Positions 1,493 through 35,392 of a stretch of DNA of 37,475 bases are shown one piece after another; position 1 is the first letter of the stretch, and each line of letters begins with the position of its first letter. Source of the stretch: a virus. The position numbers and the translations under genes were made by a program. The notes under the pieces were generated by a model. That model worked only from the letters and a program-made list of their open reading frames with translations, made no database searches and had not been told where the DNA came from. The stretch is from IMG/VR virus record IMGVR_UViG_3300005529_000071, positions 1 to 37,475 of that record, one strand, 5' to 3'.

Positions 1493-1975
1493 CTAGCGCC
1501 CCTCTCGCCCGGCCTTCTCGACTCGAACCTCGGCCGGCCCGACCCACACCTCGACCCGGGCGGGCTCCCCGTAGCGCTTCTCGAGGAGCTCCTCGACGAT
1601 CTGCGCGTCATCGCGGTAGACGACACCGGTCAGCGCGTCCTCGACCGCCCGCGCGAGCTTCAGCAGGTCCGGACGCGACGCCGGCAACACCGGGGCGCTC
1701 GAGAGCAACCCGTACGCGCCATAGTGCTTCTTCGGCCGCGCGACGTGGAACGTCATCGTCGCCGCGAGCGGCCCGTCGAGCAGCTCCCGCTCGCCGATCG
1801 CCTCACCGGCGACCTGCGCGACCTGCTGACGCCAAGGCGCCGAACGCCGCCCCGCCTCGCGGACCCACACACGACCCGCCGGGCCGCGACCGATCGTCTT
1901 CGACCCCGCCGGCTGCGCCGGCCCGAACACCGTGAACCGCACCCCGGTGACAGCCCGCTCGGCGACCGCGCTCAC
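1493..1975 (-). CDS. rusA: RusA-family Holliday junction resolvase
   Basis: This 160-residue protein matches the RusA endonuclease family, which cuts four-way junctions and branched DNA during phage recombination and before packaging. The signature lies at residues 101-133: RPDLLKLARAVEDAL, then VVYRDDAQIVEEL and a Lys. It corresponds to the acidic cluster (here Asp103, Asp113, Asp122/Asp123) and a following basic residue. An N-terminal FTVFGPAQPAGSK motif near residue 14 is also typical. The length fits the family (about 120-160). The start is GTG, overlapping the Ku stop as GTGA, so it is probably translated together with Ku, and the two may act in one recombination and end-processing module. 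Confidence 0.9.
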   Translation of the reverse strand: MSAVAERAVTGVRFTVFGPAQPAGSKTIGRGPAGRVWVREAGRRSAPWRQQVAQVAGEAIGERELLDGPLAATMTFHVARPKKHYGAYGLLSSAPVLPASRPDLLKLARAVEDALTGVVYRDDAQIVEELLEKRYGEPARVEVWVGPAEVRVEKAGREGR

Positions 1976-2790
1976 TTCGACCCCCGCTTCCTCGCCGCCA
2001 GCTTGAGGCTCTCCCGGAGAGCCTTCTCGAGATCGAGCGGCGACGCCCCCGGCGCCTCGACCAGGCCGCGGCCGTCGCGCACCTTCCCCTCGATCAACGC
2101 GCGGATCCGCTTCCCGTGGCCGCTCCGCAACAGCTTCGGGTTGAACTCGCGGCTCTGGCCGGCCACGAACTTCCGCGCCAGCAGCAGCTCACGCTCCGGA
2201 GCAGCCTTGAGCGCCCGTCGGATCGGCACGGTTGAGCGCACATCCGCGCTCAGAAAGAGCGTGGAGAGGCAGAGCACCCCGGCGAGCGGGTACACCGCGC
2301 ACGCGTACTCCCGGCCGTACATCACGATCGCGCCCAACCCAGCGAGCTGCTCCGACCCCAGCGCCGCGAGCAGCAGCGCGTAGGCAGCAGCGTCCCCCTC
2401 GCCCCCGCGGGGGGCGAGGTAGTAGGTGCTGTCCACGTGCAGCAGCAGCCGCTCGTCCGGGGGGACGAACCGGTCGAGCAGGATCGTCTTCGCCTCGTCG
2501 CCGCTCGCGAGGTCGGAATCCTCGATCTCCACGTAGTGTCCGGTCGCGAACTCGAACCCCTTCACGATCTCGGAGGGCTTCACCGACCGGTTGTGCCTCG
2601 AGCAGCGCTTCGGCTGCACGATCCGCGCGCCACACCCGCGGTGCAGCAGCACGAACGAGACATCCTCCCGCTGACGGGCGACCTGCACCGACACCGGCAC
2701 CGCCACCTCGCCGAACACGACCGAGCCGTTCCACAACGCGCGAGGCTGCTTCTTCTTCGCCGACCGCGCCTTCGTCGCGGCCGCGGTCAC
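1972..2790 (-). CDS. ku: Bacterial-type Ku, DNA end-binding protein of NHEJ
   Basis: The 272-residue product is a bacterial/phage Ku. Family hallmarks in order are: ALWNGSVVFGEVAVPVSVQ near residue 18, DVSFVLLHRGCGARI near 43, a basic CSRHNRSV segment, EIVKGFEFATGHYVEIEDSD near 73, ILLDRFVPPDE, a YYLAPRGG motif, YALLLAALG, the beta-barrel strand IVMYGREYACAVYPLAGVLCL, and a C-terminal helix. Ku homodimers encircle broken DNA ends and recruit LigD for non-homologous end joining. The length is near the usual 260-300, but the lysine-rich C-terminal tail of some host Ku proteins is almost missing. The GTG start overlaps the RHH gene stop. Phage Ku is known from mycobacteriophages Omega and Corndog. 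No LigD is present here, so host LigD would be needed. Confidence 0.93.
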   Translation of the reverse strand: MTAAATKARSAKKKQPRALWNGSVVFGEVAVPVSVQVARQREDVSFVLLHRGCGARIVQPKRCSRHNRSVKPSEIVKGFEFATGHYVEIEDSDLASGDEAKTILLDRFVPPDERLLLHVDSTYYLAPRGGEGDAAAYALLLAALGSEQLAGLGAIVMYGREYACAVYPLAGVLCLSTLFLSADVRSTVPIRRALKAAPERELLLARKFVAGQSREFNPKLLRSGHGKRIRALIEGKVRDGRGLVEAPGASPLDLEKALRESLKLAARKRGSK

Positions 2791-2954
2791 GACGCCGCCT
2801 CTCTCAGGACGCGATCGAGGTACTCGCGCAACGCCTGCCGCGTCTCCGCGCTCTTCGACCGATCGTTCGCGGCGGCGACCTTCTTCAGGTCGTCGTGGAG
2901 GTCCCGCGGCAGACGGATCGTTAAGAAGACTTCCTTTTCAGTCGACACGGCCAT
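2787..2954 (-). CDS. Ribbon-helix-helix (Arc/CopG-type) DNA-binding protein
   Basis: The 55-residue protein starts at ATG 2954-2952; a GTG at 2978 would add eight residues. It has the short ribbon-helix-helix layout: a strand (EVFLTIRLPRDL), helix one (HDDLKKVAAANDRS) and helix two (SAETRQALREYLDRVL). Such proteins dimerise and bind operators as repressors, often of their own operon or as antitoxins. It is the first gene of the leftward Ku/RusA operon and faces the XRE gene across about 120 bp holding inverted repeats, so control of this operon is likely. No toxin-like gene follows (Ku does), so a toxin-antitoxin role is less likely. Neither start has a clear Shine-Dalgarno, so a leaderless transcript is possible. 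Confidence 0.8.
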   Translation of the reverse strand: MAVSTEKEVFLTIRLPRDLHDDLKKVAAANDRSKSAETRQALREYLDRVLREAAS

Positions 2955-2957
2955 TCG

Positions 2958-3006
2958 ATGTGTGAGACGGTAACACACATGTCGGACACACCGATACCGT
3001 CACACA
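2958..3006. promoter_or_regulatory. Inverted-repeat operator candidate between divergent regulators
   Basis: Two overlapping dyads lie between the leftward RHH gene and the rightward XRE gene. The first has 12-base arms, TGTGAGACGGTA at 2961-2972 and TACCGTCACACA at 2995-3006, complementary at 11 of 12 positions. The second, at 2958-2980, pairs ATGTGTGA with ACACACAT at 7 of 8 positions. The repeated half-site (TGTGNGACGGTA) in both orientations is what a repressor dimer site looks like. The dyads overlap the likely transcription start of the leftward operon. Which protein binds, and where the promoters lie, is inference; I could not place convincing -35/-10 boxes. Confidence 0.5.
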
Positions 3007-3074: not shown

Positions 3075-3608
3075 ATGGCCGAACTTGACCGGGCCGCTAT
3101 CAGCCTTCGGATCGCGGAGGCTCGCAAGCAGCGGGCAGGGCTTACGCAGCCCGAGCTCGCGGAGCTCCTTGAGCCGCCTGTCCATTGGCGGACGGTTCAG
3201 GAGTGGGAAGCGCCGAACGGTACGGTGCCATGGGACCGGCTAGATCAGATCGGCCGCATCACTGGGGTGACGAAGGAGTGGCTTCTTCACGGAGAAGCAC
3301 AAGTCGCAGCCGGCGTTTTCGAGGAACGGCTGGAGCGGATAGAGCGAGTGCTCGAAGAGCTAGTTGCTCGACTCGAGCCACCCGCTCAGACAGACCAAGC
3401 AGAAATCGATCTGGACGAGAAGCTCTCCGACCTCGACGAGAAGGTCATTTGGATCGCCGACGCGTGGGCGGACTGGGTGACGGCCGGGATTTCTCAGCTC
3501 GTTCGCGCCACGGACGCGGAGGGAGTTCCGGGATTCCTGGAGGCTGCGCCAGGCGCACCCGACTGGGTCCGGCACCCAGCCGGTTCTCGAGACGAACGAA
3601 GTCCCTGA
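3075..3608 (+). CDS. XRE-family (CI-like) transcriptional repressor with coiled coil
   Basis: From the ATG at 3075 the 177-residue protein opens with a lambda-repressor-type helix-turn-helix, about residues 9-72: LRIAEARKQRAGLTQPELAELL, then VQEWEAPNGTVPWDRL and ITGVTKEWLLHGE, the usual end of an XRE domain. A heptad-like acidic helix follows (FEERLERIERVLEELVARLE and a DEKLSDLDEKV repeat), probably for oligomerisation. There is no RecA-type S24 peptidase domain. A longer reading from 2958 is in frame but would cross the inverted repeats. It is one of only two supported rightward genes, which fits an immunity repressor. The last ~50 residues overlap an opposing reading frame and read less like protein. 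Confidence 0.85.
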   Translation: MAELDRAAISLRIAEARKQRAGLTQPELAELLEPPVHWRTVQEWEAPNGTVPWDRLDQIGRITGVTKEWLLHGEAQVAAGVFEERLERIERVLEELVARLEPPAQTDQAEIDLDEKLSDLDEKVIWIADAWADWVTAGISQLVRATDAEGVPGFLEAAPGAPDWVRHPAGSRDERSP

Positions 3609-5305: not shown

Positions 5306-6223
5306 CTATCCGCCTGCGCAGCCGGGGACGCGGACGAAGACCATCGGCCGGCGGCCGAACGGGTGGAACCGCTCGCGGACCGCGTCCGAGGCGTTCCCCT
5401 CGAGACTGGTGATCCCGCTCTTCGAGACCCGCTCGACGAGGCCGACGTGGCCGAGCCGATCCACGAACGCGACCAGGTAGCCGGGTTTCGGCAGGGCGCG
5501 GAGCCAGCCGTGCGAGCGTGCCCAGCCGACGATGTAGAAGACGCCGGCGGAGTTGTCCGCGATCGCGCCCGACCACGCGGTCTTCGGGAACGCGAGCCGC
5601 GCGAGCTTGAGCGCCCACATCTGGAACGACGCGCACCAGGGCGCGTGGAAGGCGCCGGTGACCGCCTGGTAGACGCGTACGCGGGCGCCGTCGTTCGATC
5701 CCCACGGCTGCTCGTGGACGCCGAGCTCGCCACGCTCGAGCGCGATCAGCCGCTTCGCGCACGCCGTCGACGCCCGGTCGGCCCGGATCTGCTTGTCAGC
5801 GGCGAGCCGCGCGGTTGCGCGACGGAGGTAGCCGATCGGCCGCGCGCGCTTGCCCGTGAGGATGTCGACGACGTCGTCGCCGGCGACAGGCTTCAGCTCG
5901 TCGGCGGGCCAGCCGAGCCGACGTTTCATCTCCACGACCGCTGAGGCGGTGCGTTTCCCGAAGAGCCCGTTGGGCTTGTGCGGGAACGTCGCGATCCGGA
6001 ACTTCGACGGTCGGTGCCCGCCGAGGAGCCACTGCAGCCCGCGGACGCGTTCCCCCCGCGAGCCTTGGTGGAGCAGCCGCGGATCCACCGGTGGCGGGCT
6101 CGGCCGCGACGGGATCAGCGTGACCGACGCAGCGTGCAGGCTCGCGCGCGCCGGCACGACGCAGAGGAGGACGCTGGTTAGGAGCATCGGGAGCGCGGCG
6201 AGCCGCGCGTACGGGTGACGCAT
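5306..6223 (-). CDS. Secreted endolysin: signal peptide, PG-binding domain, CHAP domain
   Basis: A signal peptide (residues 1-27: hydrophobic core, then VVPARA cleavage-type ending) is followed by a peptidoglycan-binding type 1 domain (about 50-105: LHQGSRGERVRGLQWLLGG, then NGLFGKRTASAVVEMKRRL). The C-terminal CHAP amidase/endopeptidase domain has the catalytic Cys197 in APWCASFQMW, His259 in LGHVGLVE and the supporting EGN at 275-277. CHAP enzymes cut peptidoglycan peptide bonds. Export through the host Sec system means the holin-like genes just upstream may only trigger or time lysis. The start is ATG with GGAG ten bases upstream. Confidence 0.93.
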   Translation of the reverse strand: MRHPYARLAALPMLLTSVLLCVVPARASLHAASVTLIPSRPSPPPVDPRLLHQGSRGERVRGLQWLLGGHRPSKFRIATFPHKPNGLFGKRTASAVVEMKRRLGWPADELKPVAGDDVVDILTGKRARPIGYLRRATARLAADKQIRADRASTACAKRLIALERGELGVHEQPWGSNDGARVRVYQAVTGAFHAPWCASFQMWALKLARLAFPKTAWSGAIADNSAGVFYIVGWARSHGWLRALPKPGYLVAFVDRLGHVGLVERVSKSGITSLEGNASDAVRERFHPFGRRPMVFVRVPGCAGG

Positions 6224-6375: not shown

Positions 6376-6687
6376 TTAGCGGCGGAAGAGGAAGTAGGCG
6401 CCGATGAGCGCGATCCCGAGCTCGACGAAACGGAGCATCTCCCCGCGCCAGGTGCGCGCGCGGATCGCGTTCTGCTCGAGCATCGCGGTCACTGTCTTCT
6501 GCGCGACGCGCTCCGCGATCTCCTCCATGTTCTCGACGAGCGTCTTCATCTGCTCGACAACCATCCGCAGCGTCGCCCGGTCGCTCTCGAGCTTGTGCAG
6601 ACGAACGCGGGTGCGCTCGTTCTCGTCCTTCAGCTCACCAACGCGGTACTCGATCACAGCCATACGGTTCTCCAGATCGTGAGTCAC
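6376..6687 (-). CDS. Holin-like protein: coiled coil with C-terminal membrane segment
   Basis: The 103-residue protein (GTG 6687; an ATG at 6663 with GGAG seven bases upstream is an equally good start) is a long charged coiled coil (MAVIEYRVGELKDENERTRV, then LHKLESDRATLRMVVEQMK). It ends in one membrane segment, FVELGIALIGAYFLF, and two Arg. This topology resembles XhlA-type lysis proteins and class III-like holins of Gram-positive phages. It lies two genes upstream of the endolysin. A structural or anchoring role is also possible, because coiled-coil tail-anchored proteins are not always holins. Confidence 0.7.
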   Translation of the reverse strand: MTHDLENRMAVIEYRVGELKDENERTRVRLHKLESDRATLRMVVEQMKTLVENMEEIAERVAQKTVTAMLEQNAIRARTWRGEMLRFVELGIALIGAYFLFRR

Positions 6688-13832: not shown

Positions 13833-14381
13833 CTATGCGTTGGCGACTTTGAGGGCGATCAGGAACCGGCTGCCGAAGCTCCCGGTCCCGCCTTGTGCCC
13901 GGTATTTGCAGGTGATCGTGTTCTCGTTGCCGTTCTGGAGCGTCTTCACGACGGCGGTCATGACGCTGATGTCGTGGTCGTAGCCCTGCTGGCAGGAGTC
14001 GGCGTCCTGGGCGGCGGAGCCGTTGACGCTGATCGACTGGTAGCACTGCTGCCCGGCGACGCTCGGCGAGCCGACGTACCCGTGGAGGACGAGGTAGACG
14101 CCGTCGGCGAGGCTCGTGAGCTGCGGGCCGACCGTGCCGAGATCGTTGTAGGCGGTGGACGAGGTCGACTGGCGGGCGGCGACGCTGGCGCTATTCGCGA
14201 GGAACTGGGAGAACCCGGTGATCTGCGAGATTGGAAGCAGCGGCGGGTTCGCCTCGATGTAGGCGACGAGCCAGGAGCGGAAGATCTGCGGGAGCTCGGT
14301 CGGGTCGCCGAGCAGCCGCTGGACGAGCTTCCGTTCATTCTCGGTGAGTGGGCTCGCGGAGGGGATGCTCGGGCTAGGCAC
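13833..14381 (-). CDS. Phage tail-appendage structural protein, 182 aa
   Basis: The N-terminal ~70 residues are helical (LTENERKLVQRLLGDPTELP, then QIFRSWLVAYIEANPPLLPI) and probably attach to the virion. From residue ~75 the protein is strand-rich, with LGTVGPQLTSLADGVYLVLH, VNGSAAQDADSCQQGYDHD, and a C-terminal NTITCKYRAQGGTGSFGSRF. I know this two-part layout (NPPLLPISQI... then an LTxLxDGxYLVL jelly-roll-like domain) from actinobacterial phage tail or appendage proteins. The start is GTG and overlaps the nozzle gene end by eight bases. Receptor contact is plausible but unproven. Confidence 0.7.
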   Translation of the reverse strand: MPSPSIPSASPLTENERKLVQRLLGDPTELPQIFRSWLVAYIEANPPLLPISQITGFSQFLANSASVAARQSTSSTAYNDLGTVGPQLTSLADGVYLVLHGYVGSPSVAGQQCYQSISVNGSAAQDADSCQQGYDHDISVMTAVVKTLQNGNENTITCKYRAQGGTGSFGSRFLIALKVANA

Positions 14382-15819
14382 GGCGGCTCTTCTCGAGGTC
14401 GTGCCCCTCGAGCTCGACCCCGTACAGGAGCGTCGTCGCCGACGGGCCGCTCTGGGTGACCTTGAACCCGAACCCGCCGGCGCGTTGCCGCACGGCCGCC
14501 CGCGCCCGTTTGTACCCGGTCGTCGCCCCGAAGGTGTCGTCGAGGGTTGTGTACGCGGCGCCAGCGGGGCTTGTGAGGTAGCCGATCGAGAGGGTCGGCC
14601 GGTCGGCGGCCGCGTCGGCGAGCTCGTAGCCGAGGTAGGCGTAGCGCACCCGCAGCAGCCCCTGCACCGGGGTGAACGGTGTCTCCATGATCGGCGTGAC
14701 CGCGCTGCCGTCGGCGTCCTCCTTCACCCCGGCGGCGGGGGAGAACACGCTCGAGAACGAGCAGACACGCGCGGAGGCGCGGTCACCGAAGTAGAGCTCG
14801 GCGGCGGCGCCGACCGCGGGGGCAAACGTGAGCGCGCGGATGTTCGCGAGCCGGAACCAGACACGACGGTCGAGGTCGCAGACGAGGCAGTCCTTGAACG
14901 AGGGGCCGTCGGCGATCGAGAGGACGTAGTAGCCGCGGTAGACGCCCGCGGAGAGCGTCCAGCTGCTCGTGTACCCGGAGAGGAGCGTCTGCCAGTAGTG
15001 GCTCATCCCGCCGGCCTCGGTGAGGTCGATGATCGTCGCTGCGTCGGTGAGGAACACACCGGTTTGGTTCGCCCAGATCACGAAGTCGCCGTAGGAGGCG
15101 ACCGAGCGGGCGTCGAGGCAGCCCTGGTCGAAGAGCGGCTCTAGCACCATGTCGGTGTTCGGGGGCGGGGTGGCGCCGCGGATCCGCTCGGTGCGGCCGT
15201 CCGACCAGACGAGCACCGCGGAGCGGAGCGCGGCGATCGCGCGGATCGGCGCGGACACGTCGATGTACCCGGCCGCCGGCCACGACTGCGGGTCGCCGGG
15301 CCCGGAGAAGCTCAACCGTTGCGGCTCCGCGTTCGTGTTCCCGAGCAGCGTCCGGTCCTTGTAGACGGCGGCGTACTGGGCGGCCGGCGGTGACCCGCCG
15401 AGGGTGGTGAGCGTGGAGCCGTCGTAGCTCTTCGGCGTGGAGACACCGTCGCCGGCGGGGATGATCAGCCGGTTGCGGTGGAAGACGGGCACCTGCAGCG
15501 GCGCGACCGCGGCACCGATGTGCGAAGCGCTCGACGGTGAGGCGACCGTGTACAGCTCGCCGTCCTCGTCGAGCGCGCAGAGCTTCGCCCCGGCCTCGAA
15601 CGGCGCGTGGGCGACCGCCTGTACGTAGCTGGCTGAGGGGTGGACGGTGGCGAGGTCGGGGGAGGCGTACTCCCAGCCGCCGCGTTTCGCGAGCGGGCCG
15701 CCGAACTGGGGCAGGTAGTCGACGAGGTTCCAGGCGGCGCCGGCGACCATCTGCTCGCGAGGCTCGTCTTGGCGCATCCCACGGTTGAACTGGAACGCGA
15801 GCGGGCGCGGCTGGGCCAC
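14374..15819 (-). CDS. Tail nozzle / tail tubular B-like protein
   Basis: The 481-residue protein starts (GTG) with QFNRGMRQDEPREQMVAGAA, then NLVDYLPQFGGPLAKRGGWE, the opening I associate with podovirus nozzle or tail-hub proteins. The middle is a chain of short strands with repeated patterns (KLCALDEDGELYTV; NRLIIPAGDGVSTPKSYDGS; SFSGPGDPQSWPAAGYIDV; SAVLVWSDGRTERI; DFVIWANQTGVFL). This fits a beta-propeller-like domain. It lies downstream of the adaptor and fibre genes and before internal proteins, as in many short-tailed phages. The assignment rests on motif layout and context, not on a computed match. Confidence 0.75.
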   Translation of the reverse strand: MAQPRPLAFQFNRGMRQDEPREQMVAGAAWNLVDYLPQFGGPLAKRGGWEYASPDLATVHPSASYVQAVAHAPFEAGAKLCALDEDGELYTVASPSSASHIGAAVAPLQVPVFHRNRLIIPAGDGVSTPKSYDGSTLTTLGGSPPAAQYAAVYKDRTLLGNTNAEPQRLSFSGPGDPQSWPAAGYIDVSAPIRAIAALRSAVLVWSDGRTERIRGATPPPNTDMVLEPLFDQGCLDARSVASYGDFVIWANQTGVFLTDAATIIDLTEAGGMSHYWQTLLSGYTSSWTLSAGVYRGYYVLSIADGPSFKDCLVCDLDRRVWFRLANIRALTFAPAVGAAAELYFGDRASARVCSFSSVFSPAAGVKEDADGSAVTPIMETPFTPVQGLLRVRYAYLGYELADAAADRPTLSIGYLTSPAGAAYTTLDDTFGATTGYKRARAAVRQRAGGFGFKVTQSGPSATTLLYGVELEGHDLEKSRRA

Positions 15820-19169: not shown

Positions 19170-20915
19170 TCAGATCGAGATGCCGCCGACGCGTTCGCCG
19201 ATCGTGACGCTGCGCATCAGCCGCGAATAGGTCGCCGCCGCTGCGCGCGCGGCCGGGTTGCTGCCGTCGGTTGGCATTGACGTGTACAAGCCGTCGGAAC
19301 CGGCGGACCAGTCAGGCCAGTCGATGAATGATGGGATGCCGAGGCCGCGCCACCGGTCACGCCACCTGAGCGCCGCCACCCTCGTCTTCGTGTCTTGGTC
19401 GGCCTGCGATACGGAGGCGTTCCAGCCGATCTCTGTGATCCACAACTCGGCTGTGCCGAACCCGAGCTCGCCCAACACGTCGATCGCGACGAGGGTGTCG
19501 TTGTAGGCATTCGACGAGTTCGAGTTGTCGTCCGGGCCAGCGCCACTCGAGGGGTAGGGGTGGATTCCGAACCTCGTGAACCCGGCGAGGTCTCCGGTGC
19601 CGAAAGCGGTGCGCCAGAACGTCTCCCCGGCGATGTCGCCGCCGCCGGGCGCAGACCATGAGTTGATGCCGCCGGTGACGATGATCCCGGCCGGGTCTGC
19701 CGCAGGGATGGTTGTGCCGCCGACGTTCTTGCAGTACCTGGCCCACTGAGTGGCGTCTGGCCCAGCGGCGCCGTTCTGCGTCTTCCACTCCGATTGGGAG
19801 TTAGGCTCGTTCCACAGCTCGTAGATCGGGGAGAGGCCGTTGGGGTTGCCGGCGCCGCCGGCCTTGTATCGGGCGGCGAGCGCGCCGATCGCGGTCTGCT
19901 GTAACCCGAGCCAGGTGTTGAAGGCCGAGTCGATCCCGGTGCCGGGGACGGCGAACCGGCCGGCGCTCGAGTTCATGTACGCGGCGGAGCCGTGGAGGAG
20001 CAGCCAGACGCGGATGCCTTTGGTGGCGCAGTCGGCGAAGACCGTATCGAGGCGAGCGAAGTCGTAGGTGCCGCTTCCGGTGTTCCACTGGTCGACGAGC
20101 GCGTCGGTGCGGGTGACGTTTCCGCCATCTCGGAGAAGGACGCGTGTCTGGTTCGCGCGGATCCCGGCGTCTGCCTGGTCGTCGAGGTTCGTGTGCGTCC
20201 CGATGTAGAAGCTGCGCGTGGGGACCGGGGTGACGTTCTCCGCGTTGAACGCCGCCTCGATCGTCTGGCAGTTCGCGTTCGAGAGGTAGGACGGCCACCA
20301 GGCGGTGTACTGGAGGACGAACCGGCCGAAGTTGTCACCGATCGTCGGCTGCGGCGCCCCGGAGAACGTGTACGCCTGGTTCGTCCACAGCACAGGGGTG
20401 GCGTCGACGCCGTCGATACGGATCGACCCGGCGGTGAGGTTGTTGACGCGGCAGATGACGAGATGCCAGAGGTGGGTGTCGCCGATATCGACGGTCGCGG
20501 CGTTCCCGAGGCCACCCCAACGGAGCGCGATCGTCGGCCGGTACGACTGGCCGGCGCCCGCTTCGAACCGGACCGCGGGCGTGTCAAAGACGCCATTCGT
20601 GTCCGCACACCAAACCGCCCCGCCAGGGTCTTCGAACCCCCAGCAACGGACGACGCAGACGTGCGTCCACGTATTCGAGTTCCACACCGCCCCCGCCAGT
20701 GGGAGAGCGAGGCAGCTCGAGCCTGCGCCCGGACACCGGTAGGCGGTGCCGGTTGTGCGGTCGTTCCCGAGCCCGAACGCCTTGAGTTTCGCGTTCGCCT
20801 GGTAGCTGCCGTGCCTGGCGTTCCCGGAGGAGTCCGTCATCGTCGCGAGCGCCGAGTCTGCGTGCTTGTAGAGCGCCGCCGGGGACAGCGCCTGAAGTGC
20901 GGAAAGAAGCGACAT
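19170..20915 (-). CDS. Tail protein with LamG-like N-terminus and clan GH-A glycoside hydrolase
   Basis: The 581-residue product has an N-terminal LamG-like domain (about 10-230: ALYKHADSALATMTDSSGNA, NTWTHVCVV, HLWHLVICRVNNLTAGSIRI). A TIM-barrel glycosidase follows (about 235-575). Catalytic signatures of clan GH-A are visible: Glu370 in IYELWNEPN (acid/base) and Glu495 in LWITEIGWNAS (nucleophile), about 125 residues apart, with IHPYP at 451-455 between. These belong to GH5/GH39-like enzymes that cut beta-linked sugar polymers. In a phage tail this would degrade capsule, teichoic acid-type glycan or other surface polysaccharide. The start is ATG directly after the TAG of the 153-aa gene. 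Confidence 0.88.
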   Translation of the reverse strand: MSLLSALQALSPAALYKHADSALATMTDSSGNARHGSYQANAKLKAFGLGNDRTTGTAYRCPGAGSSCLALPLAGAVWNSNTWTHVCVVRCWGFEDPGGAVWCADTNGVFDTPAVRFEAGAGQSYRPTIALRWGGLGNAATVDIGDTHLWHLVICRVNNLTAGSIRIDGVDATPVLWTNQAYTFSGAPQPTIGDNFGRFVLQYTAWWPSYLSNANCQTIEAAFNAENVTPVPTRSFYIGTHTNLDDQADAGIRANQTRVLLRDGGNVTRTDALVDQWNTGSGTYDFARLDTVFADCATKGIRVWLLLHGSAAYMNSSAGRFAVPGTGIDSAFNTWLGLQQTAIGALAARYKAGGAGNPNGLSPIYELWNEPNSQSEWKTQNGAAGPDATQWARYCKNVGGTTIPAADPAGIIVTGGINSWSAPGGGDIAGETFWRTAFGTGDLAGFTRFGIHPYPSSGAGPDDNSNSSNAYNDTLVAIDVLGELGFGTAELWITEIGWNASVSQADQDTKTRVAALRWRDRWRGLGIPSFIDWPDWSAGSDGLYTSMPTDGSNPAARAAAATYSRLMRSVTIGERVGGISI

Positions 20916-23002: not shown

Positions 23003-23347
23003 TCAGTCCGGGGGAAGCCAGACGCCTTGGCCGCGGAGCTCGTCGCGCAGCTCCTCGTCGGTGCGGGTCGGCCAGAGCTCCTCGTCGCCGCGGTACTCGA
23101 ACTCGAGCTGGGCGAGCTGGTCGCGTCGCATCGGGTAGCGGCAGTAGGGCTCGACGCAGCGGTCGGGGAACGGCTCCGGCTGGGGGAAGTGGTGACAGGC
23201 GAGGCAGCGGTAGCCGGTGCGGTACTGCTCGAACGTCTCGGGGGAGACGGTGATGTTGATGCCGCGGGCAAGCCGGCTGTTGACCGCGTACAGCTCGTCT
23301 GTTGGGCGGACTACGGCTTCTGGCATTCCGTGGTCGCGGTCAGCCAT
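23003..23347 (-). CDS. Zinc-ribbon-like small protein, 114 aa
   Basis: The ATG 23347-23345 has a strong GGAGG six bases upstream, inside the 3' end of the glycosyltransferase gene (eight-base overlap). The protein has two Cys pairs, CLACHHF and DRCVEPYC, spaced like a zinc ribbon. Ahead of them lies LARGINITVSPETFEQYRTG. The C-terminus is acidic (LEFEYRGDEELWPTRTDEEL, ending QGVWLPPD). Its position directly after the glycosyltransferase suggests a partner, but no function is known. The in-frame extension to 23440 is antisense-like and rejected. Confidence 0.75.
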   Translation of the reverse strand: MADRDHGMPEAVVRPTDELYAVNSRLARGINITVSPETFEQYRTGYRCLACHHFPQPEPFPDRCVEPYCRYPMRRDQLAQLEFEYRGDEELWPTRTDEELRDELRGQGVWLPPD

Positions 23348-24986
23348 TGATCGCCTCCTGCCAGTGGTGGATCTGCGCCGCGGTTGTCCGCTCGGCGAGC
23401 ACGTACTCGCGCGCCGCAGCGGCGAGCTGGCGCGCCTCATCCGGGTGGCGGACGAGATGCTCGATCGCGCGGCGGAACTCCTTCGCGCCGCCGGCTTTCA
23501 GGCAGGTCTCGCCGTGCGTCCAGGTCTTGTACGGGGCGACGTCGGAGAGGACGGGGGTGCAGAGGCCCATCGCGTACTCGAGCGCCTTGACGTCGCTGCG
23601 GCCGAGCGCGAACGGGTGGTGCTTGATCGGCGCGACGCCGATGTCGAAGAACCGGAACGATTCCCGGTAGGCGTCGAGGTCGTCGAGCCAGGGAAGGTAG
23701 CCGTGCGGGAACCGCCAGCCCGGGTTGAAGCCGGCCGCGTACACCTGCACGCCCGGCTGGCGCGCCGCCCACTCGAACGCTGGTGTGACGAGCGGCGCGT
23801 CGGCCTGGTGGGAGAGCGAGGCGAACCAGACGATCCGCAGGATCCCGTCCTCCGGCTTCTCCGGCTCCGGCCAGTCCTGCGGGTCGACGGTGTTTGGGCA
23901 GACGTGAACGTTCGGGTTCAGCTCGCGGTACTGGTTCGCGAGCACCTCGGTGGTGACGATCACCCCGTCGGCGTCTTTCACGATCGCGGCGTGCCCTTGG
24001 ACGCTGTTCGCCTGCTCGCCGATCCGCTTTCCCCACTGGGCGCGCTCGCGGATCCCGCGGCCCGGGTCGACGAGGTAGTTGTCGTCGGACTCGACGAGGA
24101 CGCGGATCCCTTTCTCGCGCATCAGCAGCGCCATCAGCGCCCGCTCTTTGTCCGCGGCGAGCTGCAGAACGGCGGCCTTGCCGAAGTGCTCCGGGAACGC
24201 GAACTTGGTGTCGTTGTGGGCGACCGCGATCCCGGCGCGAACAACACCGGGCAGATGCCGCGCGGGAAGCTGGCAGCGGAGGTAGGTCGTTGCTGGCGTC
24301 GCCGCGTTGTAGAACGTCGCCTGCACCTCGTCGAGCGGGTCCGGGCCGACACGGCGGAACCGGGAGGAGAACCCGAAGCCTTTCCCGCGCACGATCCGGT
24401 CGCGATAGTCGGCGAGAATCTCCGGGGTTTTCACCTGGTCGTTGCGGGAGCCAGCGCGGAACCGGTAGAGCAGCTGCGCCTCCGGGCACGGTTTGAACCT
24501 GCAGCCGGCGCGGTGCATGCGCACCCAGAGATCCCAGTCCTCGAGCGCGTCCATCCGCCGGAACCCGCCGACGGCGAGCGCCTGCTCGCGGCGGATCAGC
24601 GACGCCGCCGGGATGTAGTTGTTCTCCTGCAGGCGGAGTCCGCAGAAGGCTTCCGCGGCGGAGAACCCGAGCTGCTCGTCGAGCGTCTCGTTGAGGATCC
24701 GCATCGACGGGTAGACGACGTCGGCGTTCCAGGCGGGGCCGAGCAGGTAGTCGATGAACATGGGTGCGACGAGATCGTCGGAGCCGAACGGCAACACGAA
24801 CTCCGTTTCCGCCTGGGCGAGTCCGCGGTTGAGCGCACCAGAGACGTCGCCGCGGTTCTCGAGTACGAGCTTCGGCGCCTCCTCGGGGAGCGAGCCGATC
24901 GCCTGGGCGAGCCACTCCCGGTTTCCCTTCCTCCGGTGGATCGGGATCAGGACGGTGACGTCGCTGATCTCGAGGCGTCTGCTCAT
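23340..24986 (-). CDS. Two-domain glycosyltransferase (GT2-like plus GT-B-like)
   Basis: The 548-residue protein begins SDVTVLIPIHRRKGN, the N-terminal strand of GT-A family 2 enzymes. It has the nucleotide-sugar motif GSDDL (Ser69-Asp70-Asp71) and the acceptor motif ALEDWDLWVRM (Glu149-Asp150). From about residue 235 a second, GT-B-like domain follows: GVVRAGIAVAH, GVIVTTEVLANQYRELNPNV, ILRIVWFASLSHQ, and DVKALEYAMGLCTPVLSDVA with Glu470 in the family-4-type position. Start ATG 24986 overlaps the upstream stop (ATGA). Placed among virion genes, it probably decorates capsid or fibre proteins with sugars; modification of host surface sugars is the alternative. Confidence 0.88.
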   Translation of the reverse strand: MSRRLEISDVTVLIPIHRRKGNREWLAQAIGSLPEEAPKLVLENRGDVSGALNRGLAQAETEFVLPFGSDDLVAPMFIDYLLGPAWNADVVYPSMRILNETLDEQLGFSAAEAFCGLRLQENNYIPAASLIRREQALAVGGFRRMDALEDWDLWVRMHRAGCRFKPCPEAQLLYRFRAGSRNDQVKTPEILADYRDRIVRGKGFGFSSRFRRVGPDPLDEVQATFYNAATPATTYLRCQLPARHLPGVVRAGIAVAHNDTKFAFPEHFGKAAVLQLAADKERALMALLMREKGIRVLVESDDNYLVDPGRGIRERAQWGKRIGEQANSVQGHAAIVKDADGVIVTTEVLANQYRELNPNVHVCPNTVDPQDWPEPEKPEDGILRIVWFASLSHQADAPLVTPAFEWAARQPGVQVYAAGFNPGWRFPHGYLPWLDDLDAYRESFRFFDIGVAPIKHHPFALGRSDVKALEYAMGLCTPVLSDVAPYKTWTHGETCLKAGGAKEFRRAIEHLVRHPDEARQLAAAAREYVLAERTTAAQIHHWQEAING

Positions 24987-25318
24987 CCGGCGACGGCGAC
25001 GTACGCGTCGTCGGTGAGCTCGGCGGGCACGATCCGCACCTGCACGCGGCCGTCTCCTTGGACGCGTCCGTCGTCCTCGAGCGACGCGTGGTACTGGTGA
25101 CCGTCGAGGGTGCAGCCGTTCGCGAGCACCCAGAGCGCCTCGCGCGGGTCGAGCGCGATCACGGCGATCCCGTGGCGTTCCGGGCGGAGCCGCCACACCG
25201 GGCGCACGTAGTCGGCGGGGATCCCGTCCTGCCGGTCCGCGACCGGCGGGTGCCACGTCTCGGAGAGCCTCAGCTGGTAGTAGTGGCAGCCCTCGTCGTG
25301 GCAGATCGGGCAGGTCAC
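24983..25318 (-). CDS. Small protein with N-terminal CPICHDEGC zinc motif
   Basis: The GTG start overlaps the upstream gene (GTGA), and the stop overlaps the glycosyltransferase start (ATGA). Residues 3-11 read CPICHDEGC, followed by a His, which could form one zinc site. The rest is strand-rich: ETWHPPVADRQDGIPADYVR, ERHGIAVIALDPREALWVLA, a DGHQYHASLEDDGRV segment and VRIVPAELTDDAYVAVAG. Tight coupling suggests that it works with, or is made in step with, the glycosyltransferase. The family is unknown. Confidence 0.75.
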   Translation of the reverse strand: MTCPICHDEGCHYYQLRLSETWHPPVADRQDGIPADYVRPVWRLRPERHGIAVIALDPREALWVLANGCTLDGHQYHASLEDDGRVQGDGRVQVRIVPAELTDDAYVAVAG

Positions 25319-25902
25319 GCCTCGACCAGCTCCTCCTCCACCAGGTGGTCGAGCTCGGCTTCGTCGACCGCCTCACCGGTGGTGAGCGGCTGCAGCGCCG
25401 CGATCACGGATTTGCGGGCGCGGTTTTCGAGCTCGTAGGCGAGGATCGCCGCCGCGTCGTAGCCGTCCTCCTCGACCCTGGTGAGGATCTTCTCGATCAC
25501 CTGCTTGTTGGTCAGCCCGCCCTTGGTCGCGACGAGCTCGTCGTACTTCGGCCACGGCGGCGTGAGCCGCGGCAGCTCGATCAGCACCGCCGCGTGGTGG
25601 TTGAGCAGCTTCTCCTCGATCGCCTGCCGCTCCTCGTCGCTCCACTCCATCTGCTTCTGATCCTCGATCGAGTCGTAGAACGCGACCCACTGGCCGGGTT
25701 CGACGCCCTGCTGAATCCTCCGGAACTCGAACCGCTTTTCGGCGATCTCGCGGGCGTGCGCGGGAGCGGTGCCGCGCTTGAACTTCGCGAACACTCGCCG
25801 GCGGGCGGGCGCCACCATCCGGCCGGCGGTGTCGTAGAGCGCCGGCGTCTCGTTCCGAACGACGACGTGAATCGGGTCTTCAGCGATGAACTGCACCTGC
25901 AT
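25315..25902 (-). CDS. Hypothetical protein downstream of the capsid gene, 195 aa
   Basis: A strong Shine-Dalgarno (AAAGGAGTGG then ATG) lies just downstream of the capsid-gene hairpin. The N-terminal half is strand-rich (QVQFIAEDPIHVVVRNETPA, RRRVFAKFKRGTAPAHAREI). A Trp-containing segment (GVEPGQWVAFYDSIEDQKQM) leads to helices, including NKQVIEKILTRVEEDGYDAA, and an acidic C-terminus (DEAELDHLVEEELVEA). Capsid-proximal position makes a head completion or decoration role thinkable, but no family is recognised. The end overlaps the next gene as GTGA. Confidence 0.7.
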   Translation of the reverse strand: MQVQFIAEDPIHVVVRNETPALYDTAGRMVAPARRRVFAKFKRGTAPAHAREIAEKRFEFRRIQQGVEPGQWVAFYDSIEDQKQMEWSDEERQAIEEKLLNHHAAVLIELPRLTPPWPKYDELVATKGGLTNKQVIEKILTRVEEDGYDAAAILAYELENRARKSVIAALQPLTTGEAVDEAELDHLVEEELVEA

Positions 25903-25990: not shown

Positions 25991-27193
25991 CTAGCCGGTG
26001 ACCCCGCGCAGGATCGCGTGGGTCTTCTCGGCCTTGCACACCAGCGTGACCTCGGAGAGGTACTCCTCCGCGGTCTCGTCGGCGTCGTTGGCCTGACGCT
26101 TCGGGTACAGCGCCGCGAACCGCGGCCCCTGCGACGTCGCCGGCGCCTTCTTCAGCGCCACGTTCGTCATGTCGACGAGGTAGGCGCGAGAGCCGAGCTG
26201 CTTCGCCGTCCCCTCGCCGAACCGCTTCCAGTCGTTCTTCACGATCACCGGGATCCGGGCGCCGTGAACCGCCGAGATGACGGCGTCGACGCTCACACCC
26301 CAGACGGTCGTCTCGTGCGCGGACTCGGTGCGCACCCAGTTGTCCTGGAGGAACTCCGAGAGCACCTGGGCGACGATCGGACTGGCGAAAAGCACCTTGC
26401 GGTTGCGCTCGCCGTACTCGAGGCCGGAGCGGAGGAAGTCGTTCCACGCTCCCTTGTCGAGCGTCCCGCCGACGTCGGTGATGTTCGTCGAGATGTACTC
26501 GTCGAGCCCGCCGAACGTGCAGCGGGGCGCGTTCGTGCCGGCGGTGTACGAGCGGGCGCCGAAGAAAAGCTGGTCTTCGATGTCGCGCTTGTGCTCGATC
26601 GCGATCTTCCGCCGGTGGTAAGTGAGCGGGTTACCCGAGTACCACGTCTGCCACTCCGCCGTCGAGGTGAAGCGGTAGGCGTTGCGGATGATCTGCATAT
26701 AGTTCAGGTTGCTGGTCTTCTGCGTGACGATCGCCGTCGGCAGCGTCCCACCCTGCTCGTTCGAGCCGGCGAGGATGACGATCCCGCCCTGGCCGGTGCC
26801 GGAGGCGGCGGTTGCTGCGGAGACGGAACCGATCGCGCGGACGACCGTCCACGCCGAGGCGGCGACGGCGGTGATCCGGAACGCCTCGCCCGTCTGGACG
26901 AACTTCCCGGTGTCGCCGACCTTGGCGTAGGTGCCCTCGTTCGCGGTGACCGCGAGGTTCGTGTCACCCGCGGCGGCGGTGGCGGAGAGCGCCGTGTTGC
27001 GGGGGAGGAACACGTCCTCCTCCCACTGCTCCTGGAAGCTCTTCGCCGTCTCGACGGGGAGCTTCATCAGCATCGTTGCGAACTGCGAGGTGTCGCGATC
27101 GACGTTTGCCACCTGGCTGTCCATCGACACTGCGAGGTCGACGGCGAGCGGGTCGTCGGTCGCGACGAGGTCACGGTTGGTCGTGACCGCCAT
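25991..27193 (-). CDS. Major capsid protein, SU10/DUF5309-type HK97 fold
   Basis: The 400-residue product contains WEEDVFLPRNTALSATAAAG, a TYAKVGDTGKFVQTGEAFRI beta-loop, VVRAIGSVSAA, then NYMQIIRNAYRFTSTAEWQT and a KIAIEHKRDIEDQLFFGARS helix, ending with a domain (PVIVKNDWKRFGEG, KAEKTHAIL). This order (D.LLPR..L, V.TGE..RVTAV, NY.QI.R, EH.RDIE..FFG) matches the SU10 major capsid family (DUF5309). The start is ATG with GGAG upstream. It follows the scaffold gene and precedes a hairpin, consistent with high expression. Confidence 0.9.
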   Translation of the reverse strand: MAVTTNRDLVATDDPLAVDLAVSMDSQVANVDRDTSQFATMLMKLPVETAKSFQEQWEEDVFLPRNTALSATAAAGDTNLAVTANEGTYAKVGDTGKFVQTGEAFRITAVAASAWTVVRAIGSVSAATAASGTGQGGIVILAGSNEQGGTLPTAIVTQKTSNLNYMQIIRNAYRFTSTAEWQTWYSGNPLTYHRRKIAIEHKRDIEDQLFFGARSYTAGTNAPRCTFGGLDEYISTNITDVGGTLDKGAWNDFLRSGLEYGERNRKVLFASPIVAQVLSEFLQDNWVRTESAHETTVWGVSVDAVISAVHGARIPVIVKNDWKRFGEGTAKQLGSRAYLVDMTNVALKKAPATSQGPRFAALYPKRQANDADETAEEYLSEVTLVCKAEKTHAILRGVTG

Positions 27194-28330: not shown

Positions 28331-28747
28331 TCAGTCACCTTCTTCCTGTTCGAGAAGCCGCTTCAGTTTCTCGGCCTCGATCAACGGGTTGTCCAGGAGG
28401 AACTTCATCCCGGCGAACACGCCGCGCTGCCACTGCAGCTGGTCGTAGTCGGGGGCGATCGCGCGGCTCATGAACGCGCGGGTCAGCTGGCGGAAGTGGA
28501 CGTGCATCCGCTCGAGCGCGACCCGGCGGAGGATCTCCCATCCCGGCTGGTCCGCGAGCTGCGCGACGAGCTTCCGCTCGTGGTCGCCGACGTGCGGTGG
28601 CAGCTCGAGCTCCTGGACGCGGAACGTGTCGCTCCGCTCGCGGGCGGAGAGCCGCTCGATCGCGTCCTCCTCGCTCTCCGCACGGATGACGATCGCGCGG
28701 TCGTCGGTTTGCCAGAAGACGAAGTCTCTGGCGGGCTGGTCAGACAT
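28331..28747 (-). CDS. Hypothetical protein between portal and scaffold, 138 aa
   Basis: The ATG at 28747 overlaps the portal stop by eight bases, and two bases separate its end from the scaffold. The N-terminal part has strands (RDFVFWQTDDRAIVIRAESE) and a charged RSDTFRVQELELPPHVGDHE segment. The C-terminal half is helical (PGWEILRRVALERMHVHFRQ, AIAPDYDQLQWQRGVFAGMK, then FLLDNPLIEAEKLKRLLEQE). The pattern W-x-RG.F.GMKFLLDNP is one I associate with small phage head-region proteins lacking an assigned role. It may help portal or scaffold assembly. Confidence 0.75.
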   Translation of the reverse strand: MSDQPARDFVFWQTDDRAIVIRAESEEDAIERLSARERSDTFRVQELELPPHVGDHERKLVAQLADQPGWEILRRVALERMHVHFRQLTRAFMSRAIAPDYDQLQWQRGVFAGMKFLLDNPLIEAEKLKRLLEQEEGD

Positions 28748-30617
28748 TCGCCGGGCCGCCCCTCATCGTCCCTGTCCGTTGCAGCATCGTCTCCCCGGAG
28801 AGCGACCCCTGCGCCGAGGGGGACATCGCAGGGTCGATCGACTGCGGCGCGGTCACGCCGGCTGGGATCCCTTGCGGCGGCTCTGCGCCTGGCGGTGGCG
28901 GCTGCCCGGGCATCTGGGCTCCGGCCTGGTCGACGGGTTTCTTCGAGAAGTAGCGGTCGACGTCGGACTCGTCGTAGGACTGGAGCCAGTCGCGCATGAA
29001 CTCGTCGGCGTTCAGCGGGGTCGCGAGGCCGGCCTTCGCGAGCTGCAGGTACACCGTCCAGCACTGGGTGAACATCTGCAGTTTCGCGTTTGCCTCCGCT
29101 CGCCGTTCCGAGCGCATCAGGCTCTCGACCATCGGGGTGACGTCGAACAGGTAGTCGCCCTGGAGCAGGTAGGGGGCGATCCGGACGAACTCGGACTCGG
29201 AGTCGAGCCCGATCCGCTCGACCATGATGTCGGTGCGGAGGAACTGCTGGTTCAGCTCGGTGCGCTGCTGCCCGATCCGCCCGTACGCGTAGAAGAGCGC
29301 CTCCCTCAGCCGGACGGTCGCGCGCTCGGCGATGTTGGTCGCGAGCGCCGCCTCGGTCGCCGTGTCCGCGCCGACCGTGGTCGCCTCCGACGTCGAGGTG
29401 AACGGGTGGCCGCCGGCGATGTTCTGCATCATCTGCTCGAGGTTCGCGAGATGCGGGAGCGCGACCTGGGCGGGGAACGCCTGCGGCGTCCACGGCATCA
29501 CCATCTGGTTCGGGTCGCCCTCGACCGGCCAGCGGGCGCCGGGGTAGAACTCGAGCGCGTCCGGGTCGGTGACCTCGTCGCCGACGATGAAGATCGCGTT
29601 GTTGATCAGCCGGACGTTGTCGAGCATCTGGTTGGTCAGGTCCCAGTGCGCCTGCTGGATGTCCGCGATCCGCTCGACCTGGCTCTTCCCTGGGATCGAG
29701 AACAGATCGGGCCGGGTGGTACAGACAACGAACGGGTACTCGCCGTGCCAGAACGGGTTCTTCCGCGGCGGGCTGAGCTCGACCTTGCGCTCGCCGAGCG
29801 CGACGCTGTAGATCCCGTCCGGTTCGCGCCACCAGATCTCGAGCAGCTCGACCATGTCCTTCGAGCGGCTGGTGCCGTCGACGACGCGCTTCGCGTTCGG
29901 CCCTGACCCGCCGGCGTTCTTGATCTCGTCGACGTTCTGGTAGTAGCCGAGCTCTTCGAGCCGTTTCAGCTCCGAGTGGTGCATCCAGACCGCGTGCGCG
30001 ACCACCGGGCTCTTCTGCAGCTCGGTCGCCGCTTCGTGCCAGTAGAAGTCCTCGACGTTCACGACCTCGGTCGTGGGCCCGTCGTAGCGGAGGTCGACCG
30101 TCTCCTCCTCGACGAGCCTGGGGAGGAACACGCCCAGTTCGAGGCCGCGCTCGTCCGGGACCACCTTCAGCCGCGGCCGGATCCTGACGTCGCGGCACCA
30201 GTGGTTCTTCGCGACGGTGATCCCGGCGATCGCGTCCTGCAACGCGAACGGCTGCTGCCGCTCCGCGAACCGGTCGTCGGCGAGCTGCGCGTTGTGCAGG
30301 ATCTCGTGCGCCTGCGCGCCGAGCCGCGCCTGCTCGTACTCCTCGGGCTCGTAGAAGCGCGCGCGCGGCTTCACCCGGAACGTGAGCCGGCCGTCGACGA
30401 TCGCGGCGAGCGACGACTCGACGATGTGCTCGATCAGCGGTGGGTGAAGGTTCGACTGCCAGCTCTCCCGCCGCCGAGCGGCGGACTGCTCGAGCACCCC
30501 GTGGTAGGCGCTCATCCGCTCCTGCAGCTTCGACACGAACGTGGTGTGGCTGGAGACGCAGCCCTCCTCGAAGAGCCGCAGCGCCTTCTGCGCCGTCTCC
30601 GACAGCTCGACCGGCAC
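28740..30617 (-). CDS. Portal protein
   Basis: The GTG at 30617 gives 625 residues; it lies seven bases after the upstream TAG. The protein shows portal-type features: a long helical start (ETAQKALRLFEEGCVSSHTT), HPPLIEHIVESSLAAIVDGR, FRVKPRARFYEPEEYEQARL, a central wing (VEDFYWHEAATELQKSPVVA, LLEIWWREPDGIYSVALGER), and a stem/crown region. Motifs near the stem include ERIADIQQAHWDLTNQMLDN, VRLINNAIFIVGDEV and GGHPFTSTSEATTVGADTAT. The C-terminus is Pro/Gly/Gln-rich. The length fits podovirus portals, and it stands between the terminase and scaffold genes. Confidence 0.88.
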   Translation of the reverse strand: MPVELSETAQKALRLFEEGCVSSHTTFVSKLQERMSAYHGVLEQSAARRRESWQSNLHPPLIEHIVESSLAAIVDGRLTFRVKPRARFYEPEEYEQARLGAQAHEILHNAQLADDRFAERQQPFALQDAIAGITVAKNHWCRDVRIRPRLKVVPDERGLELGVFLPRLVEEETVDLRYDGPTTEVVNVEDFYWHEAATELQKSPVVAHAVWMHHSELKRLEELGYYQNVDEIKNAGGSGPNAKRVVDGTSRSKDMVELLEIWWREPDGIYSVALGERKVELSPPRKNPFWHGEYPFVVCTTRPDLFSIPGKSQVERIADIQQAHWDLTNQMLDNVRLINNAIFIVGDEVTDPDALEFYPGARWPVEGDPNQMVMPWTPQAFPAQVALPHLANLEQMMQNIAGGHPFTSTSEATTVGADTATEAALATNIAERATVRLREALFYAYGRIGQQRTELNQQFLRTDIMVERIGLDSESEFVRIAPYLLQGDYLFDVTPMVESLMRSERRAEANAKLQMFTQCWTVYLQLAKAGLATPLNADEFMRDWLQSYDESDVDRYFSKKPVDQAGAQMPGQPPPPGAEPPQGIPAGVTAPQSIDPAMSPSAQGSLSGETMLQRTGTMRGGPANV

Positions 30618-30624
30618 CGGTGCT

Positions 30625-30915
30625 CTACCCGGTGAGGCGGCGGATCGCGCGGGCGCCACCGCCCATCAGCCTGTCCTGGTCTGCCTGCTGGTTCGCGAGG
30701 ATCTGCTGGATCAGCGTTGTCACCCGCTCCATCCCGAGCAGATCCTGCGGGTCCTTCTCGACGTTCCGGTACAGGGTCGCGAGCTTCAGCATCGCGTCGA
30801 GGATCTGCTCCGGCGCGGTCAGGTCCCCGCCCGGCGGAGGACCGGCGTCGGTGTCCGCCGCCGGCGGGGGCGCGCCCATCTCGGGCGCGATCGGGAGCAT
30901 CCCGGCAGGCAGCAC
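30625..30915 (-). CDS. Hypothetical protein upstream of portal, 96 aa
   Basis: The GTG start (30915-30913) follows two bases after the Lys-rich gene. The first 35 residues are Pro/Gly/Ala-rich and disordered-looking (LPIAPEMGAPPPAADTDAG). The rest is helical: APEQILDAMLKLATLYRNVE, then ERVTTLIQQILANQQADQDR and a basic GGGARAIRRLTG end. Small helical proteins at this place in packaging operons may aid portal or terminase docking. There is no direct evidence and no recognised family. Confidence 0.65.
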   Translation of the reverse strand: MLPAGMLPIAPEMGAPPPAADTDAGPPPGGDLTAPEQILDAMLKLATLYRNVEKDPQDLLGMERVTTLIQQILANQQADQDRLMGGGARAIRRLTG

Positions 30916-31127: not shown

Positions 31128-32765
31128 TCAGACGGTGACGATCTGGCTCTTCTTCGGCCGTCGGTTCGGGTGGTGGCCCTTCTGCCGGTAGAGCTCGAGC
31201 GCGATCGCCGCGGCGAGAACGGCGTCGTCGTTGCACCCTTCCGCCGCGCGCGGGCTCGTGCCCTGGTCGTGGTGGACGAACGACCGGCACTCGAACAGCA
31301 GGTCGCTCGTCATCCAGGGGAGCTCCTGGTCGCGGATCGCTTTCGCGAGCAGCGAGAGAGCCCGCGGCCGGGTCTTCTCGCCGATCCGGAACCCTGGGTC
31401 TTTCGGGCGGCGGCCTGCGGGTCGTGCGGCGGGCCGGTGGTAGTAGAGGTTCGTGTACTTCGGCCGCCCCTCGCGCCCGTCGCGCAGCGGGACGATCACC
31501 GCTTCGCCGTGGCCGGTCGCGGTCTCGATCGCGATCAGCGCGTCGCGTTCGCAGCCTGAGCGGGTGCCGTACCAGCGGCCGAGGTAGTGGAGCTGGAAGG
31601 CGAGCTTGTCGACGTCGATCTTCGCGCGGATCTCGGCGCTCAGCGCCATCGAGGTGAAGTTGATGACGTAGACGGCGCTGTTGTCGCGGCCGCGGCCGGT
31701 GGCGACGTCGACGGCGATCCCGTAGGTCGCGTCACCGCGTGGCTCCTCGTACACGCGGATCAGCCCGTTCGCCCCGGTTTGCACCTTCTTCGCGACCCGC
31801 GGGTTGACCGGCTTGAACTCGCACCGGTAGAGCGGCTTGGCGACCTTCTCGCGCGCGTAGACGGCGAGCGCGTCCGGGTCGAAGTACGGCAGCCCCGCGG
31901 TCCCCTGGAAGCCCTCTTCCGGTGTGCGCGGATACTGCTCCGCCCGACCGACGGTGTCGAGGACCAGGTACTCGGGCGCGGTCTCGTACCAGCGCTCGTC
32001 ACGCAACGGGTGGAGGTCGGTGGGGAGGAACACCTTCGTGATCCCGCGCTCCTCGGCGGTGTTCCACAGGTGCGCGAAGTGGTTGCCTTCGCCGTCCTCA
32101 TTTGCGACGCCGTTCGCGGTCGAGACGAGGTCGACCTCGCCGAGGGTGCCGACGGTCGCCATCACCGCTTTCAGCACCTCGCGGAGCTTCTTGATCCGGG
32201 CGGCCTCGTCGAGGAGAACACCGGCGACGGTTTCGCCGTGGCCGGGCTCACCGGTCGGCGGGAGCGCTTTGATCGACGAGGTGACCCCGTTCCGGTGGAG
32301 CAGCTTGATCTCACCGTCGGGGAAGACGTCGTCCCGATCCAGGCCGCGGTGCGGGGTGATCACCTTCGTCCCGAAGCGGAGATGCTCGGGCAGCGAGCAG
32401 AGGAGCTGCCACTGCCGGTTGACGATCTCGAGGGCGTCCTCTTCCCGCTGTCGGAACACGAGGTAGCGGGTCCCGGGCAGGGTGAGCGCGCGGGCGAGCT
32501 GCCTGGCGGCGGCGATCCAGGTGATCCCGAGCTGGCGCGCCTTGTAGAACAGCCGGATCTGGGTGGTCGCCATCACGTCCCAGACGAGCGTCCGCTGCCA
32601 GTACCACGGCGAGTCGGGGTCGTTGAGGTAGAACCTGAACACCTCGCCGGTCTTCTCGTCGACCATCGACATCCGGTCGAGGAGAAGCGACAGGTCGTAG
32701 CGGACGCGCCGCCGCTCGAGCTCCCGCTCGGCGAGGATCCGCCTCGCCTCAGCCTGGAGGTTCAC
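31128..32765 (-). CDS. Terminase large subunit (packaging ATPase/nuclease)
   Basis: The GTG at 32765 overlaps the upstream stop (GTGA); the longer frame to 33056 is rejected. The 545-residue protein has an ATPase domain with a Walker A-like KARQLGIT (75-82), Walker B GVLLDEA (182-188) and coupling motif STANG (215-219). It also has an RNase H-like nuclease domain with acidic residues in GIAVDVATGRGRD, in LIAIETATGHGEA and in CNDDAVLAAAIAL near the C-terminus. The terminase cuts concatemers and pumps DNA through the portal. An EGNHFAHLW segment follows motif III, as in actinophage terminases. The C-terminus is basic. Confidence 0.93.
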   Translation of the reverse strand: MNLQAEARRILAERELERRRVRYDLSLLLDRMSMVDEKTGEVFRFYLNDPDSPWYWQRTLVWDVMATTQIRLFYKARQLGITWIAAARQLARALTLPGTRYLVFRQREEDALEIVNRQWQLLCSLPEHLRFGTKVITPHRGLDRDDVFPDGEIKLLHRNGVTSSIKALPPTGEPGHGETVAGVLLDEAARIKKLREVLKAVMATVGTLGEVDLVSTANGVANEDGEGNHFAHLWNTAEERGITKVFLPTDLHPLRDERWYETAPEYLVLDTVGRAEQYPRTPEEGFQGTAGLPYFDPDALAVYAREKVAKPLYRCEFKPVNPRVAKKVQTGANGLIRVYEEPRGDATYGIAVDVATGRGRDNSAVYVINFTSMALSAEIRAKIDVDKLAFQLHYLGRWYGTRSGCERDALIAIETATGHGEAVIVPLRDGREGRPKYTNLYYHRPAARPAGRRPKDPGFRIGEKTRPRALSLLAKAIRDQELPWMTSDLLFECRSFVHHDQGTSPRAAEGCNDDAVLAAAIALELYRQKGHHPNRRPKKSQIVTV

Positions 32766-35261: not shown

Positions 35262-35392
35262 GCGTGGCGCCGCCAGGTCAGGTAGATGACGAACCAGCCC
35301 GGCGGCCGGTAGGCGAACTGGCAGCCGAACCCGCGAATCCGCAGACAGACGCTCCCGCCGCCGAGCGGGTCTCGCACTCGCCAGAGCTTCAC
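35258..35392 (-). CDS. Very small protein (44 aa) coupled to both neighbours
   Basis: A 45-codon frame from GTG 35392 to TGA 35258 overlaps the LuxR-HTH stop and the next gene's start, each as GTGA. The peptide reads VKLWRVRDPLGGGSVCLRIR, then GFGCQFAYRPPGWFVIYLTW and RRHA. It is aromatic- and Cys-containing, with short strands, and looks like a compact beta hairpin or a zinc-binding peptide. Coupling on both sides is the main evidence that it is expressed. Function is unknown. Confidence 0.6.
   Translation of the reverse strand: MKLWRVRDPLGGGSVCLRIRGFGCQFAYRPPGWFVIYLTWRRHA

Follow-up and report, generated by a model that had tools for sequence, protein, structure and literature searches.

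A virus record of 37,475 nucleotides (IMGVR_UViG_3300005529_000071 in IMG/VR; its whole length is the window analysed here) encodes an intact, full-length and very diverged bacterial-type Ku protein at positions 1972 to 2790 of the minus strand. The best explanation for this gene, to which we give a probability of roughly 0.4, is that Ku is made early in lytic growth, attaches to the ends of the phage's DNA and passes these on to the LigD of the host.

The Ku ORF starts with GTG and encodes 272 amino acids, with the core domain at approximately residues 17 to 245. It matched the Pfam Ku family (PF02735, E-value 2.1e-27, 96.7 bits against a cut-off of 25), the PHROGs family annotated as 'Ku-like DNA end binding' (phrog_4873, 4.7e-26) and the bacterial Ku model of NCBIfam (TIGR02772 Ku_bact, 5.7e-49, 166.9 bits against a curated cut-off of 150), the last over profile positions 1 to 259 of 259. 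A monomer structure prediction (mean pLDDT 80.9, pTM 0.65) was closest in Foldseek to the DNA-bound Ku structures of B. subtilis and M. tuberculosis. The B. subtilis Ku core 9vnq was matched with an E-value of 1.2e-18 and TM-scores of 0.67/0.79 (0.79 by target), and M. tuberculosis Ku 9i91 was also matched. The profile score above the TIGR02772 cut-off and the predicted fold thus bear out the initial annotation, which had called a full-length bacterial-type Ku from the letters alone. In an alignment with 20 other Ku proteins, 37 positions were conserved in 17 or more of the others; the window Ku keeps 31 of these positions, and its EIVKGFEF block is whole. Two residues conserved in other Ku proteins, D223 and Y225, are replaced by serine and histidine, which, judged from the alignment, counts against a role in end joining. 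A basic N-terminal extension of 16 residues, five of them basic (MTAAATKARSAKKKQP), lies ahead of the conserved R17. We favour the upstream GTG start because it overlaps the preceding gene and because R17 would be lost with the later TTG start. Codon composition is coding-like and the same as that of the neighbouring genes, and the third-position GC of 0.93, like that of the neighbours, argues against a recent arrival.

The C-terminus consists of a minimal helix (SPLDLEKALRESL) followed by a basic tail. The helix keeps L258 and S261, which are invariant across the Ku alignment, and the tail after S261 is LKLAARKRGSK, with 5 of 11 residues basic, in a family where tail length varies widely. The lysine-rich tail had been described as nearly absent; it is indeed short, but it is present. 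In M. tuberculosis Ku the extended C-terminus is only 14 residues long, and the minimal C-terminus is all that the Ku proteins of B. subtilis and P. aeruginosa need to interact with LigD (PMC9638933). The persistence of the L258/S261 motif despite such strong divergence suggests that LigD contact may be under selection.

The Ku gene lies between two genes on the same strand. Upstream is the first gene of the operon, which encodes a ribbon-helix-helix protein of CopG/Arc type (2787 to 2978, minus strand; 63 amino acids or shorter; PF01402, 6.5e-6), and downstream is a gene for a RusA-like resolvase (1493 to 1975, minus strand; 160 amino acids). Both the RHH/Ku and Ku/RusA junctions are 4-base GTGA overlaps. 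These overlaps, together with the PF05866 and PF01402 matches, confirm the earlier description of Ku as coupled to RusA and led by an RHH protein. Small genes on the same strand follow RusA (646 to 1492), among them a protein matching phrog_27831 (approximately 646 to 1014) and a 76-aa ORF (1262 to 1492). Divergent from the Ku operon, at 3075 to 3608 on the plus strand, is a gene for an HTH repressor-like protein (phrog_2328 transcriptional repressor, 3.1e-9), whose match to HTH_31 of Pfam was below the family cut-off. The divergent intergenic region at 2953 to 3006 contains imperfect inverted repeats (TGTGTGA at 2959 and TCACACA at 3000; GACGGTA at 2966 and TACCGTC at 2995), which are suggestive of a possible operator. 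Scanning the operon for promoters and terminators returned nothing, including no sigma-70-like promoter at 2953 to 3006. Oriented away from the repressor gene, RHH, Ku and RusA would form an early lytic operon, and Ku is probably switched on early in infection.

E. coli RusA has three conserved catalytic aspartates, D70, D72 and D91, which are essential. The window RusA belongs to this family by profile (PF05866, 4.6e-15, 56.8 bits against a cut-off of 22.8; phrog_140, 7.5e-27) and, in the alignment, does not have the full set of three. It reads PD-L-L instead of PD-x-D, with Leu105 in place of the second conserved aspartate, and the other acidic residues are kept. Across nine aligned RusA proteins, this position is leucine in the window, serine in Thermobifida phage P1312 and aspartate in the other seven; the window and P1312 proteins also have a glutamate just before the later conserved aspartate. 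The missing aspartate weakens the proposal that RusA clears branches, and the resolvase activity of this protein is putative. RusA was found beside Ku in none of 17 other viral records, making the window the sole carrier among 18 Ku-bearing viral records.

Close to the right edge of the window, 27 bases at 37359 to 37385 (plus strand) form an attachment-site-like 3' end of tRNA-Cys, from which the 5' part of the tRNA is absent. Of these bases, 26 are identical to the tRNA-Cys(GCA) of two of the 296 genomes searched from an actinobacterial phylum, for which the chance expectation is about 3e-9. In one of the two genomes (L108, G179:C188, 2312 to 8220), 5.9 kb separate an intact tRNA-Cys from a truncated 3' copy, and this span is likely an element inserted at the same kind of site. 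Beyond the tRNA-Cys end in the window, a 16-codon minus-strand frame ends near 37427 and runs off the contig; it may encode the C-terminus of an integrase. Together with the divergent repressor gene, the tRNA-Cys 3' end suggests that the phage is temperate. The same tRNA end suggests integration, for which the genome would have to circularise, so that the need for circularisation put forward initially finds support here. The matching genomes belong to a small actinobacterial class; of its 27 genomes, 26 have a LigD polymerase domain and the same number have a Ku of their own. The host possibly belongs to this class, an assignment made from a 27-base fragment, and the abundance of LigD in the class would support the use of host LigD that had been suggested.

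The phage appears to be of the short-tailed SU10 type, judging from its structural genes, all of which are on the minus strand. These encode a major capsid protein (25991 to 27193; PF17236, 1.5e-31), a portal protein (28740 to 30659; PF23899, 2.3e-29; phrog_1216) and an internal virion protein-like product (14374 to 15819; phrog_511, 2.6e-14), families that agree with the short tail proposed in the initial annotation. The large terminase subunit is T4 gp17-like (31128 to 33056, minus strand; phrog_2, 8.4e-19), and its tblastn matches were T4-like phages and podovirus MW202803. On the same strand are a CHAP-domain protein, likely the endolysin (5306 to 6223; PF05257, 5.1e-6), and a holin-like protein (6376 to 6687; phrog_1296, 5.8e-6). 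Scans of IMG/VR with the terminase and portal proteins revealed no close phage relatives. SU10-type capsid genes were present in 14 of 396 genomes searched from the actinobacterial phylum, and these were set aside as relatives because two showed 27–30% identity at best and the others no similarity to window proteins. Between the capsid and tail genes, a 678-aa protein (23340 to 25376) has two glycosyltransferase regions. A tRNA-Gln (TTG) was called at 20548 to 20620 (minus strand) inside the large ORF at 19170 to 20915 and may be real or a false call; an Rfam scan gave no matches. Upstream of the terminase are a gene whose product weakly matches a DnaJ-type zinc motif, at a score under the Pfam cut-off (34144 to 35103), and one for a small protein that by eye resembles a LuxR-type HTH (35389 to 35598); both products are possible late regulators.

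The genomes of SU10 and phiEco32 carry terminal repeats of 193 bp and replicate through concatemers (PMC4281155). By analogy, the SU10-type capsid and portal and the T4-like terminase suggest redundant ends, and short cohesive ends would not be expected, an end type taken from distant relatives for a contig without natural ends. This argues against the original proposal's short cohesive ends of the Omega and Corndog kind, and the terminal repeats of the relatives are an end type that the initial annotation itself had named as speaking against its reading. No terminal repeats were found at the contig ends. The record is linear, its completeness is unstated and it is a fragment, so replication genes, an integrase, a recombinase and a ligase may lie outside it. 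At positions 1 to 181, 15 tandem copies of a 12-base repeat encode (G/D/R)SQL units, in frame with a minus-strand gene that extends past the contig edge; on the left, the assembly thus broke off within a gene. The earlier statement that the window contains no ligase held, as there was no PF01068 match, but this absence weighs little because the record is a fragment.

In our preferred reading, in which Ku acts with host LigD, Ku would bind the ends of the phage DNA and pass them to LigD, and the sealed ends would yield circles able to integrate at tRNA-Cys or to replicate. The same joining would mend breaks in phage DNA, and by binding the ends Ku would also keep host exonucleases off them. We favour LigD-dependent joining because the LigD-contact helix is kept, a temperate phage would need to circularise and LigD is present in the likely hosts. 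Joining by a phage Ku has precedent in mycobacteriophages (PMC4351075, PMC3706429, PMC7719229). A more specific version, in which a temperate SU10-type podophage would use Ku and host LigD to close or mend a redundant-ended genome, instead of or beside homologous recombination and with the RusA variant co-translated, seems rather unlikely to us.

The main rival is that Ku mainly shields the phage DNA ends from nucleases, a possible but doubtful explanation. Redundant ends, as suggested by the T4-like terminase and SU10-type head, would be closable by homologous recombination, which speaks against joining. Shielding is also in line with the place of Ku in an early operon beside the recombination gene RusA, and it has a precedent in Gam (PMC1378119). 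However, the retained LigD-interaction helix would be superfluous for pure shielding, and the window showed no recognisable exonuclease or annealing protein. Timing bears on this as well. A Ku made only after entry would arrive late to circularise the incoming genome, unless the protein is packaged or host Ku acts first; this, like the head and terminase type, favours shielding or repair. Repair as the main job, with Ku and host LigD mending phage DNA cut by restriction, CRISPR or replication collapse, is an unlikely alternative that draws on the same Ku_bact score and fold match, on expression at a stage when breaks matter more than the first ends, and on the frequency of LigD in the best-matching host class.

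Two other explanations are far less probable. The phage Ku could interfere with that of the host, with mixed dimers or takeover of LigD blocking host end joining. The putative host class almost always has its own Ku and the phage Ku is strongly diverged, but no precedent is known to us and such interference would not require an intact core with the LigD-contact helix; we consider it very unlikely. Least probable of all is that Ku is lysogeny cargo benefiting the host cell and not phage replication, since, temperate as the phage appears, the Ku operon faces away from the repressor gene, on the usual lytic side, and bacteria of the candidate host class have a Ku and a LigD of their own.

We also determined how the window Ku is related to other Ku proteins. 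Its best identity to any Ku found was 36%, and in a tree of 33 Ku proteins it formed the longest branch (2.45) with no supported partner. AU tests rejected its grouping with an 11-member clade of soil-phage Ku proteins (p = 0.0096) and weakly rejected its grouping with the mycobacteriophage clade (p = 0.042), both tests being limited by long-branch effects. Kinship with either clade is therefore disfavoured, with trust limited by the long branches, and recent uptake from the candidate host class was not supported, as identity to its Ku is only 27–30%. These results suggest that the window Ku may represent a third, separate phage lineage besides mycobacteriophage and soil-phage Ku.

The soil-phage clade comprises 11 IMG/VR records (L002, L003, L004, L006, L007, L008, L009, L010, L042, L044 and L048) and is sister to Acidobacteriota Ku in the 33-protein tree, with 98/89 support for the viral clade. 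We know of no earlier description of it. Where examined, its contigs contained terminase, capsid or DNA methylase genes near Ku, and the terminases were GpA-type and HK97-type within a few kilobases of Ku, which fits cohesive-end phages. Like the window Ku, these proteins occur on contigs with terminase and capsid genes; unlike it, they join Acidobacteriota Ku and have no RusA. No ligase was found in nine other Ku-bearing viral records. In an annotated phage collection queried with a better-conserved Ku, 81 of 82 Ku records were mycobacteriophages, for the most part from clusters J and O, which are long-tailed, and the remaining one was an unannotated 5.5-kb contig. The literature searched contained no Ku in a podovirus.

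The Ku proteins of clusters J (Omega, Baka, Bobby) and O (Corndog, Firecracker) are likewise single-domain and bacterial-type, keep the LxxS motif and are thought to circularise the genome through host LigD. Identity between the window and cluster J Ku is approximately 31%. The phages of these clusters have long tails and genome ends with 4-base 3' overhangs, whereas the window phage has an SU10-type head and T4-like terminase. No RusA lies beside the three mycobacteriophage Ku genes viewed, in contrast to the window, and the C-terminus of cluster J Ku is an Lsr2-like stretch (PMC3706429) where the window Ku has its short basic tail. Chromosomal bacterial Ku that works with LigD (TIGR02772) shares the core and minimal C-terminus, but the window Ku differs in having no ligD neighbour in the window, a very long branch, a short tail and the basic N-terminal extension. 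Gam of phage Mu is a possible functional parallel, as it binds and protects phage ends and can promote joining with host ligase (PMC8136500), although the window had no match to the Gam family at an E-value of 0.001 in Pfam or PHROGs.

The window lineage and the soil-phage clade point to several separate acquisitions of Ku by phages. If the phage has redundant ends, the question arises what phages use end joining for besides short cohesive ends. If Ku and LigD close such ends, phages would have an end-joining module that differs from the cohesive-end system of Omega and Corndog.
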